A stretch of 33,763 nt of DNA from contig NZ_JAHEBC010000007.1 in assembly GCF_024642405.1 (NCBI RefSeq), positions 1-33,763 of the forward strand, given 5' to 3'. The translations under genes were made by a program, and so were the position numbers. Origin of the DNA: Algoriphagus sp. GTDB lineage: Bacteria > Bacteroidota > Bacteroidia > Cytophagales > Cyclobacteriaceae. The notes beneath the pieces are model-generated. The model saw nothing but the letters and a program-made list of their open reading frames with translations. It was not told where the DNA came from and made no database searches. The stretch's first letter is position 1. Each line of letters begins with the position of its first letter. Below are positions 30,339 to 33,601 of this stretch, in pieces.

Positions 30339-30695
30339 ATGTTCATGAAACCTTCATATCCTTTTAAGAAAATCGGCATTTCAGCATTATCCTTGATGGT
30401 ATTTTGCTTTTTAGCAGGTGAATCTTTTGCACAAGGTGAGCAAGAAAAAGTGGATTTAGAAAATGTAAAACAGACTGAAAAGCTCATCATCGAAGATCAA
30501 AGTCAAAATTCTGAGATTAATTCTCCAAAAGTTCTCCCTTCTAAAGTATTGTCTAATCCATTAAACAAAAATTTAGTGAAAAGAGATTTACCAGCTGGGG
30601 GTGTTGATAAAGAAATCAAAAAAGAAGAATCTTCTCCCTCAACTTTATCTTTCAACATTTTTCTTTATATAGTTGATAAATTCAAAGCTGATTAA
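30339..30695 (+). CDS. small secreted protein of unknown function
   Basis: I do not recognise a family. The 118-residue protein has a signal peptide (KKIGISALSLMVFCFLAGESFAQG) with likely cleavage after FAQ or FA, then a low-complexity, charged and probably disordered region (EQEKVDLENVKQTEKLIIEDQ...), and a compact C-terminal hydrophobic patch TLSFNIFLYIVDKFKAD that looks like an amphipathic helix. A second ATG two codons in could be the true start. It is divergent from csaA and ends in a 16-bp-stem terminator, which supports its being a real transcription unit. Confidence 0.65.
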   Translation: MFMKPSYPFKKIGISALSLMVFCFLAGESFAQGEQEKVDLENVKQTEKLIIEDQSQNSEINSPKVLPSKVLSNPLNKNLVKRDLPAGGVDKEIKKEESSPSTLSFNIFLYIVDKFKAD

Positions 30696-30710
30696 ATTCG
30701 GTTTAAAATA

Positions 30711-30746
30711 AATAAAAAATGAGGCTTTAGAGCCTCATTTTTTATT
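30711..30746. terminator. bidirectional terminator between the small secreted protein and the hisA-like gene
   Basis: A perfect 16-bp stem (AATAAAAAATGAGGCT and its complement) with a TTAG loop separates convergent genes. Confidence 0.92.
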
Positions 30747-30767
30747 TTCACTTATTTTTAACTAATT

Positions 30768-31502
30768 CTAACTTTTTGAAATGAACTGTTCAAGCTCGCT
30801 TAGTTTTAACATTCCTTCATAATAAGCTCTTCCAAATACTGCTGCACCCAAACCTATGTCTTTTAATTTTTTGAAATCCTCTATATTCCTTACACCACCA
30901 CTAGCAGCAATATTCAGGTTGGGGAATTTCTTTACAAGGTCTGCATAAAGTTCAAAATTAGGCCCTTGCATAACTCCATCTCTAGTCACATCAGAGCACT
31001 TAAGAAACTTTAATCCTCTTTCATAAAAAAACTCGATATGATCATATAAATCTATTTCTGTTTTCTTTAGCCAACCTTTGATTTTTATTTTATGATCTTC
31101 GGGATTCGTATCAGCCGCAAGGTTAATTTTTTCACGTCCATATGACAATATAAACTGGCTGAATCTTTCGGGATAGTTTGCAGCGGCTGAAGCAATAGTC
31201 ACAGTCTTTGCTCCAAACTCAAAACATTTAATAACATCCCCATCTGTGGATATTCCTCCTGTAAAGTCTATTTTAAGATTTGTATATCCTGCTATCGCTT
31301 CAAGAATATGATAATTTTTAGGCTCTCCCCTTCTAGCTCCATCTAAGTCAACTAGGTGAAGCCTTTTAATTCCAATAGATTCAAATTCTTGGGCAATCTC
31401 TAAAGGATTATTAGAAATTGCCTCTTCAGTAGCGAAATCACCTCTTTTCAGACGGACACATTTGCCATTTATCAACCAAATCGAAGGAATTATTTCAAAC
31501 AT
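30768..31502 (-). CDS. HisA-like TIM-barrel protein lacking the first catalytic aspartate
   Basis: The start is the ATG at 31502 (MFEIIPSIWL, 244 residues); the ORF-track TTG is three codons earlier. It follows HisA (ProFAR isomerase of histidine synthesis) along its whole length: NGKCVRLKRGDF, RLHLVDLDGAR, FTGGISTDGD, LAADTN (Asp131, matching the second catalytic Asp), CSDVTRDGVMQGPN, and AASGGVRNIEDF...VFGRAYYEG. The general acid/base aspartate of the first strand (PAIDL in HisA) is tryptophan here (PSIWL, Trp9). It stands alone, away from any his operon. It may be a paralogue with another role rather than the histidine enzyme. Confidence 0.82.
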   Translation of the reverse strand: MFEIIPSIWLINGKCVRLKRGDFATEEAISNNPLEIAQEFESIGIKRLHLVDLDGARRGEPKNYHILEAIAGYTNLKIDFTGGISTDGDVIKCFEFGAKTVTIASAAANYPERFSQFILSYGREKINLAADTNPEDHKIKIKGWLKKTEIDLYDHIEFFYERGLKFLKCSDVTRDGVMQGPNFELYADLVKKFPNLNIAASGGVRNIEDFKKLKDIGLGAAVFGRAYYEGMLKLSELEQFISKS

Positions 31503-31643
31503 GTGATACAATTATAGGTTTTTAGAGCTGCTATTTATTAAAATTTCCCTTAAAGATAATACAGAAGCGGTAATCATATCCCGCTATAAATGAAAACTAG
31601 TGAAAATTCAGCCTCAATTCATTAAAAATTAAATGATATCCGT

Positions 31644-32675
31644 TTATTGAATTTTCAACTTGGCAATTTTCCCATTGGAGCCAGAGGCCCATATTGCTTC
31701 TTCAGTATGTCCAAGTTTCACTGAATGAAATCCTTCAGCGGAAAAACTCTCCCAAGTTAACCCTCCATCTTTGGAAAAATCTGATCCAGTAGGCCCGACC
31801 GCTAACAACCAATGAAATCTTGGAAAATAAACAACCCCAGACCTATACCCTTTTGGTGCAGTAGATGGGATTCCCCATTCTTCATTTTCGGAATTGAAGG
31901 AAGCTGCATTAGAAATAGTATCCTGCATTTCAATATAATCACCTCCCACTAAAAAAACCTGTTTATTACCCATGGTAGCAACGGAAAATATTCCTTTAGA
32001 TGGTTCACCTTGGACAATAGGGGACTTCCACTTCTTCCAAGTTTCTCCTTGATCAGGAGAATAATGCAAATTTGCTTCAGCTCCCCCACTGCCTAACCAG
32101 AGATTATTATCATTTGCCACAAGGGATGTTGCGCTAGCAGCAAACCCTGCCTCACCATCTGATGCGTCCGGCAGATTGCTTACCGGATACCAAGAATCAC
32201 CTTGATTTGAAGTTTGCAAAATCATCCACCTCCCTTCAATAGGATCTCCAACAATAAACCCTTGATCCGGGTTGGAAAATGAAATTCCATCTAAAAATGC
32301 ATCTTTTACCTCTTGATGTTTTAAATCCCAAGATTTCCCGCCATCCATAGTTTTATAAATGACTGCTGGTTGACCTGCAGAAACAGCTATAGCTTTAACT
32401 GCATCAAAAGCGTGTATGGATCTAAAATCTACTGTATCAAGTCCTGCAATGACACCATGATCCCATGTTAAACCACCATCAATAGTTTTCAACCAAGTAC
32501 CTCCACTGCCAGTTGCCCAAGCAATTTCATCTGTAACTGGAGAAAGCCCCCTAAGGGAGGCTTTAACAGGGACTTCAAATATTTCCCAGCCTTTTGGACC
32601 ATCAGGGATATTTATTTCACTTGTCTGACAGGAAATTAAAAACCCTAAAGACAAAATGGATAAGAATTTTCGCAT
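31644..32675 (-). CDS. lipoprotein with Asp-box/YCF48-like beta-propeller
   Basis: The lipoprotein signal ends at Cys16 (LGFLISC). Five Asp-box or BNR-type repeats mark propeller blades: KTIDGGLTWD, KTMDGGKSWD, QTSNQGDSWY, YSPDQGETWK and FSKDGGLTWE. The overall pattern resembles YCF48/HCF136-like and sialidase-like propellers, often loosely named oxidoreductase or glycosyl hydrolase in annotations; catalytic residues of sialidases are not evident. It starts 8 bp after the isomerase gene stop, so it is the third gene of an operon with the Gfo/Idh/MocA and TIM-barrel genes, and probably acts in the envelope in the same sugar-related process. Confidence 0.82.
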   Translation of the reverse strand: MRKFLSILSLGFLISCQTSEINIPDGPKGWEIFEVPVKASLRGLSPVTDEIAWATGSGGTWLKTIDGGLTWDHGVIAGLDTVDFRSIHAFDAVKAIAVSAGQPAVIYKTMDGGKSWDLKHQEVKDAFLDGISFSNPDQGFIVGDPIEGRWMILQTSNQGDSWYPVSNLPDASDGEAGFAASATSLVANDNNLWLGSGGAEANLHYSPDQGETWKKWKSPIVQGEPSKGIFSVATMGNKQVFLVGGDYIEMQDTISNAASFNSENEEWGIPSTAPKGYRSGVVYFPRFHWLLAVGPTGSDFSKDGGLTWESFSAEGFHSVKLGHTEEAIWASGSNGKIAKLKIQ

Positions 32676-32683
32676 TGGCGAAA

Positions 32684-33601
32684 TTAAGAGATATCTACTT
32701 TTCTATAAGCTTCAATTAACGCTTTTTCTCCTTCTACTCCAGGATTGGCATTTCCGTGTTCCATTCCGCAAATACCTTTAAATCCTTTTTCGCTTATGAA
32801 TTTAAAAACATTACCATAATTAATTTCTCCGGTACCCGGTTCTTTTCTTCCTGGATTATCTCCTATTTGGATATATGCAATCTCATCCCATGTCTTTTGC
32901 ATGGTAGCTATTAGATTCCCCTCGTTTCGCTGCATATGGTAGATGTCATAGAGGATTTTACATGCTGGGCTGTCCACTGCTTTACAAATCATATAAGATT
33001 GATCAGCATGTCTTAAAAACAGATCTGGGTTATCACTAAGTGGTTCCATCACCATTACTAATCCATGAGGCTCAAAAATTTCAGCAGCTCTCTTATAAGC
33101 TTCAATTATATTGCCTGTCTGAACTCCCATAGGAAGATTTCTTTCAAAATACCCTGGTACCACGGTCATCCATTTTGCATTGACCCGCTTGGCCACCTCA
33201 ACTGAATTCCTACATGTCTCAAGAAACGTATCCAAAAACTCTTGTTTGCCAGTGGTAAGAGATACTTTCCAGTTATCTCCACCTTCAATGACAAAAACAC
33301 CCATTCTCATTCCCAAAGACTCCATCGTCTTGGCAATTAAAGTTTGATCCTCTAAAGATCGTCTTAGCATCCCATTATCTTCCAAAGAACGGAATCCCTG
33401 GTCGGCCATAAATTTCAACTCGTCTACAAGTCCTCCAGGCGCTGAGTTTTTAAACATTCCGAAATGAGGAGCAAAATCCATATTGAAGGTTGGTTCTGCT
33501 TTTTCAGGATTTGAGGCAAAAGAAGGAATAACAGCTCCCGAAGCAAATGTCAAGGCCGAGCCACTAAGTCCAAGGTTTCTTAAAAATTTTCTTCTTTCCA
33601 T
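32684..33601 (-). CDS. Tat-exported hydroxypyruvate isomerase-like TIM-barrel protein
   Basis: A twin-arginine signal MERRKFLRNLGLSG (RRKFLR at 3-8) followed by a hydrophobic run and ASNPEKAEP directs export of a folded, probably metal-bound enzyme. The body is a xylose-isomerase-like TIM barrel: VMVMEPLSDNP, ACKILYDIYHMQRNEGNLI, AYIQIGDNPGRKEPGTGEINY and GICGMEHGN match the hydroxypyruvate isomerase (Hyi) group and carry the metal-binding Glu, Asp, His and Glu positions. The true substrate is unknown and is likely a sugar or sugar acid, since the upstream gene (3-bp gap) encodes a Gfo/Idh/MocA oxidoreductase. Confidence 0.88.
   Translation of the reverse strand: MERRKFLRNLGLSGSALTFASGAVIPSFASNPEKAEPTFNMDFAPHFGMFKNSAPGGLVDELKFMADQGFRSLEDNGMLRRSLEDQTLIAKTMESLGMRMGVFVIEGGDNWKVSLTTGKQEFLDTFLETCRNSVEVAKRVNAKWMTVVPGYFERNLPMGVQTGNIIEAYKRAAEIFEPHGLVMVMEPLSDNPDLFLRHADQSYMICKAVDSPACKILYDIYHMQRNEGNLIATMQKTWDEIAYIQIGDNPGRKEPGTGEINYGNVFKFISEKGFKGICGMEHGNANPGVEGEKALIEAYRKVDIS

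Follow-up and report, generated by a model that had tools for sequence, protein, structure and literature searches.

A putatively neofunctionalised HisA paralogue of Cytophagales with an invariant strand-6 lysine

Results

We analysed a 33,763-nucleotide stretch of an Algoriphagus sp. contig (hereafter the window), which carries a HisA-derived gene (Table 1). The ORF opens with an ATG at 31502; an alternative TTG start three codons upstream would give a protein of 247 aa, and the start reading MFE is the conserved one. The protein matched the Pfam family His_biosynth (PF00977) over residues 3-232 (2.2e-59; 201.1 bits, above the gathering cut-off of 23.6), which makes it a member of the HisA/HisF superfamily, and PDB HisA chains matched it along the full length (down to 4e-42), bearing out the end-to-end HisA alignment reported in an earlier note on this DNA. 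Against the NCBIfam HisA profile (TIGR00007, curated equivalog cut-off 228.95 bits), the paralogue scored 200.4 bits and three distant members of its family 184-194 bits, all below the cut-off, while the canonical HisA of the same genome scored 257.1 bits, above it. Scores against the PriA profile TIGR01919 (126.6 bits, cut-off 306.45) and the HisF2 profile (67 bits, cut-off 299.7) were also low. The AF2 model (pLDDT 92, pTM 0.90) found its closest folds among Salmonella HisA structures (TM 0.93), and its strands 166-171 and 126-132 hold K168 and D131, respectively. The proteins of the family are plain barrels of ~240 aa with no fused regulatory domain. Relatives at 71-93% identity occupied 80 loci in Algoriphagus, Cecembia, Belliella, Aquiflexum, Litoribacter and other Cyclobacteriaceae. 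Comparison of the window gene with its nearest relatives gave a dN of 0.05-0.15; synonymous sites were saturated and dS was not estimable. The gene is real and under purifying selection; this selection, the intact ORFs and the TGG or Tyr codons in the 80 related loci rule out a sequencing error or a pseudogene.

No his genes were found adjacent to the paralogue in the window, as the earlier note had observed. The YCF48-like lipoprotein gene adjoined the paralogue in 72 of the 80 related loci at a spacing of 102-344 bp; it is a conserved neighbour. Together with a gene for a xylose-isomerase-like TIM barrel it lies within positions 31644-33601 of the window, and in ~60 of the 80 Cyclobacteriaceae loci this pair is preceded by a Gfo/Idh/MocA-type oxidoreductase gene and a sulfatase-modifying-factor-like gene, yielding a conserved gene block upstream of the paralogue. 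Convergent to the paralogue and directly downstream of it in 59 of 80 loci is a gene whose product is small, secreted and without a Pfam match. The paralogue had been credited with its own terminator; a hairpin was indeed found, shared with the convergent ORF, and with one such hairpin against 0.8 expected in shuffles it is weak alone. The box TATTATCTTTA / TATTATCTTTAA upstream resembles the Bacteroidota -7 element TAnnTTTG and may belong to a promoter, and no riboswitch or other known RNA element was found in the window.

Table 1. Positions of features in the window and, where a locus handle (L) is given, in related loci

Feature	Position	Strand	Remarks
HisA-derived paralogue, working name HisA-K	30768..31502	-	244 aa; Trp9, Asp131 (strand 5), Lys168 (strand 6)
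Trp9 codon TGG	31476..31478	-	Position of T. maritima D8 / S. enterica D7
Asp131 codon	31110..31112	-	LAADTN; position of T. maritima D127 / S. enterica D129
Lys168 codon	30999..31001	-	Position of S. enterica HisA L169
Conserved box TATTATCTTTAA (TATTATCTTTA)	31550..31561	-	Upstream of paralogue; conserved columns in an alignment of 12 upstream regions
Terminator-like bidirectional hairpin	30710..30747	.	Downstream; common to paralogue and convergent ORF
Small secreted protein ORF	30339..30695		Convergent with paralogue
YCF48-like lipoprotein gene	31644..32675	-	Directly upstream, same strand as paralogue
lysA-paralogue loci	L145:6486-8754; L146:7472-9733; L152:2872-4924; L153:7309-9500; L155:7531-9676
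trpA-paralogue loci in f16	L150:6620-8153; L151:6655-8191
HisH/HisF-like pair	L243:5475-6831		WbuY/WbuZ type

Across the order, the neighbours of the paralogue differed between families, and no order-wide conserved neighbour that would name a pathway was found. A conserved operon was discarded as a functional clue, since no single partner persists across families. In three family-level groups (f5, f9 and f15), a lysA gene (diaminopimelate decarboxylase-like) adjoins the paralogue divergently. In two genomes of group f16 (G120 and G132), the paralogue comes last in a trp operon that includes trpF, 26-28 bp behind trpA.

At the strand-1 site, the paralogue reads IIPSIWLING and the canonical HisA of its own genome IIPAIDLIGG. 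The tryptophan that the earlier note had read in place of the first catalytic aspartate (PSIWL) was confirmed in the DNA, and the related loci carried either TGG (72/80) or a Tyr codon (8/80). The aspartate occurred in all 43 diverse HisA proteins compared with none of 45 members of the paralogue family, and was invariant in all 100 HisA/HisF proteins compared. Its replacements in the family comprised W, S, Y, A, T, G and P, with Ser, Thr, Ala, Tyr, Gly or Pro in the families outside Cyclobacteriaceae, and mapping on the tree gave 16 changes of this site inside the paralogue clade. The earlier note had asked whether Trp is fixed in a clade; a single clade was found, but fixation of Trp is confined to Cyclobacteriaceae, and Tyr occurs there too. 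The site drifts freely and Trp is neither a diagnostic feature of the family nor the key change; the family is instead defined by an invariant lysine, K168, which had gone unnoticed.

Position 168 held Lys in all 125 distinct proteins lacking the strand-1 Asp and Leu, Ile, Phe or Val in all 100 Asp-containing HisA/HisF proteins, while Asp131 was kept in all 225. When 45 family members and 43 HisA proteins were compared column by column, K168 was the sole site fixed in the family yet absent from HisA. Tree mapping placed a single loss of the strand-1 Asp and a single gain of Lys168, with no change of K168 within the clade, so that the gained lysine is, as far as the compared sequences tell, the family-defining change. 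K168, D131 (45/45 diverse members) and two glycines in the C-half phosphate loop, G202 and G203, did not vary among proteins sharing 37-50% identity with the window protein. The LAADTN aspartate, earlier taken as the second catalytic Asp, is present as D131; however, it is an Asp in loop 6, D176/D175, that serves as catalytic acid in SeHisA/PriA (PMC9088769), and this residue the window protein also has, as D175 (D176 in S. enterica). This loop-6 Asp was kept in 39/45 family members and lost in 6/45, as was W144 (39/45 and 6/45). At the site of the distal-phosphate gripper, R83 in Salmonella, the family often had Ser or Thr (for the roles of the gripper and loop 6 in HisA, see PMC9088769), and the Gly at Salmonella position 102 was Ala in 26/45 members.

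Alignment to PDB chain 5g2h, the Salmonella HisA variant L169R, set K168 on residue 169. With this substitution HisA activity is abolished and TrpF activity gained (PMC7591586), and in molecular dynamics simulations of the variant R169 contacts D129 and the substrate carboxylate (PMC9088769). Because D129 is the equivalent of D131, K168 should reach into the active site beside D131, a geometry deduced from these contacts.

Trees built without the two diagnostic columns recovered the paralogue family as one clade (bootstrap/SH-aLRT 100/100; SH-aLRT 99 in another tree) nested in Bacteroidota HisA. Of the 22 family-level groups sampled in the order Cytophagales, 10 had the paralogue among the sequences read. 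Outside the order, surveys of the class (149 genomes) and phylum (118 genomes) gave no paralogue among the strong matches read, of which there was one per genome, every one read being a canonical HisA or HisF; these surveys rest on the sequences read, with some weaker matches left unread. On these trees and surveys, the family appears to be Cytophagales-specific, and it arose by one hisA duplication. A literature search for a Bacteroidota HisA paralogue or this family found no paper describing it; a survey from 2021 that covers the his genes of this superphylum notes additional copies of hisH and hisF (PMC8305728).

The genome that contains the window carries hisD and, on another contig, a canonical hisA with the Asp, located between hisH and hisF-hisIE (hisHAFIE cluster). 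The genome search proposed in the earlier note thus found its target, and the canonical gene rules out the paralogue as the only HisA of the genome. In ten Cytophagales genomes (G033, G029, G121, G066, G052, G079, G051, G104, G138 and G031), the paralogue was the only HisA-type protein, and both a histidine hisF and hisD were missing; hisB was also missing in nine, the tenth (G029) having an isolated hisB. The HisF-like gene of G029 sits in a glycan amidation cluster and the genome has no hisD, which excludes the paralogue as the HisA of a histidine pathway there. Another genome, G102, was removed from the set as a histidine auxotroph because it has hisD. Seven of the ten (G033, G121, G066, G079, G051, G138 and G031) lacked trpF and trpC as well, G033 being a single-contig assembly of 3.3 Mb; these absences rest on assemblies of 93-100% completeness. 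Since the paralogue persists in genomes without hisF and hisD, seven of them also without trpF and trpC, its role is independent of histidine and tryptophan synthesis.

An ordinary trpF was present in the window's own genome and in most other holders of the paralogue, and holders without trpF were mostly without trpC too, so the paralogue is not replacing trpF beside an intact trp pathway; this distribution rules out TrpF replacement as a general role. One genome, G107 (L171; contigs C78 and C151), has trpC and the paralogue with no trpF detected, and is the sole holder where the distribution leaves room for a TrpF role (or for an assembly gap). A stand-in for a missing DeoC or DHDPS was also rejected, given that the distributions were not complementary and neither enzyme was absent where the paralogue was present.

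Discussion

These results suggest that HisA-K is probably a neofunctionalised barrel derived from HisA, most likely an enzyme, with its chemistry centred on K168-D131 and no longer acting as a ProFAR isomerase. The earlier note had left two options, a HisA with a different way of working and a recruited barrel acting on a new substrate; the latter gains support from the canonical hisA and from survival of the paralogue without a histidine pathway, although Trp is not the key to it. By this account, hisA was duplicated once in the Cytophagales lineage, and the copy, having lost the catalytic strand-1 Asp and gained Lys168 on strand 6 beside the retained Asp131 on the stem branch, would have changed function. 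The substrate would be small and phosphorylated, with one phosphate held by the C-half loop (G202, G203) and the distal gripper of HisA degraded, and Lys168 and Asp131 would form the new catalytic or binding centre. Within this reading, K168 would more probably act in acid/base chemistry and carboxylate binding with no imine formed, as in L169R, and less probably form a Schiff base of the class I aldolase kind. The want of an order-wide neighbour that names a pathway counts against this reading, as does the frequent retention of D175 and W144, which may point to HisA-like or residual isomerase chemistry.

Among the alternatives, a ligand-binding pseudoenzyme seems rather unlikely. Here catalysis would be lost, the protein would sense or buffer a phosphorylated metabolite or bind a partner protein, and K168-D131 would be a structural salt bridge or a ligand contact. 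The loss of the strand-1 Asp in all members and of the loop-6 Asp in 6/45, the partial loss of the distal phosphate gripper and W144, and the want of stable pathway neighbours are consistent with such a protein, but the invariance of D131, the new K168 and G202/G203 at 37-50% identity is a pattern more usual for catalysis, and a fused regulatory domain is missing from these plain barrels. Far less probable is a spare or divergent yet working HisA. The paralogue shares with HisA (TIGR00007, EC 5.3.1.16) its fold, length, Pfam match, strand-5 Asp, C-half phosphate loop and usually the loop-6 Asp and Trp; unlike HisA, the family always lacks the strand-1 Asp that is invariant in 100 HisA/HisF proteins, has Lys at the L169 position, lies outside his clusters, and scored below the curated cut-off in 4/4 members scanned. 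A canonical hisA in the same genome and persistence without hisF and hisD argue further against this role, which we regard as the most improbable of those considered.

A TrpF-like (phosphoribosylanthranilate) isomerase or PriA-like dual enzyme, in which the charge at position 168 would read the anthranilate carboxylate as in Salmonella L169R, is very unlikely, if slightly less so than a working HisA. In its favour are the gain of TrpF activity and loss of HisA activity in L169R (PMC7591586), the Ala in 26/45 members at the site of G102A, a substitution present in crystallised TrpF-evolved Salmonella HisA variants, and the position behind trpA in the two f16 genomes; yet a normal trpF occurs in those same f16 operons, in the genome of the window and in most other holders, seven holders lack both trpF and trpC, and the strand-1 catalytic residue is replaced by W, S or A. 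The laboratory-evolved variant (PDB 5g2h) and the natural family share a positive charge at the same strand-6 position, but the former combines Arg with the wild-type strand-1 Asp, whereas the latter combines Lys with loss of that Asp and occurs without tryptophan synthesis. The bifunctional HisA-TrpF isomerases (PriA, TIGR01919) are likewise HisA descendants with a widened function. PriA keeps the strand-1 Asp (D11), as is also implied by D11N variants among the structure matches, and it replaces trpF; in contrast, most holders of the paralogue have trpF and the Asp is lost.

The reading preferred here, a new enzyme built on K168-D131, has a bolder form, in which a natural Schiff-base enzyme of the class I aldolase type would have arisen from HisA by a one-step catalytic transplant (strand-1 Asp lost, strand-6 Lys gained beside Asp131) and would serve an undescribed Cytophagales pathway; we consider this form improbable. 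In class I aldolases, which have the same fold, the lysine that forms the Schiff base is often found on strand 6, and DeoC and its relatives share with the paralogue a (beta/alpha)8 barrel with a strand-6 Lys. Profile alignment (hhalign) placed K168 on the FVKTST lysine of the DeoC of the same genome, where DeoC is encoded separately, at a probability of only 5.7 percent, which indicates no significant relationship and makes the match a lead at most.

HisA is a textbook system for barrels gaining new functions, mostly through laboratory evolution and ancestral reconstruction. In the paralogue family, an old and widespread duplicate of HisA that arose in nature, the catalytic constellation appears to have been rebuilt with a single clean signature, and the signature site corresponds to L169, the residue that laboratory selection picks to change HisA function. 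Retention of the paralogue in genomes lacking histidine and tryptophan synthesis points to an undescribed metabolic step. The paralogue is also open to mis-annotation as HisA, and histidine-incapable species may be scored as hisA-positive.

WbuZ and AglZ (HisF2, glycan amidation) are likewise paralogues of the HisA/HisF superfamily outside histidine synthesis; they are HisF-like, and their genes accompany glycan genes and one for a HisH-type partner, whereas HisA-K is HisA-derived and stands alone. At L243, a glycan cluster that also encodes a NeuB-like synthase and a protein resembling N-acetyl sugar amidotransferases holds a HisH/HisF-like pair of this type, and a simple hisF search counts the HisF-like gene of the pair as a histidine HisF.
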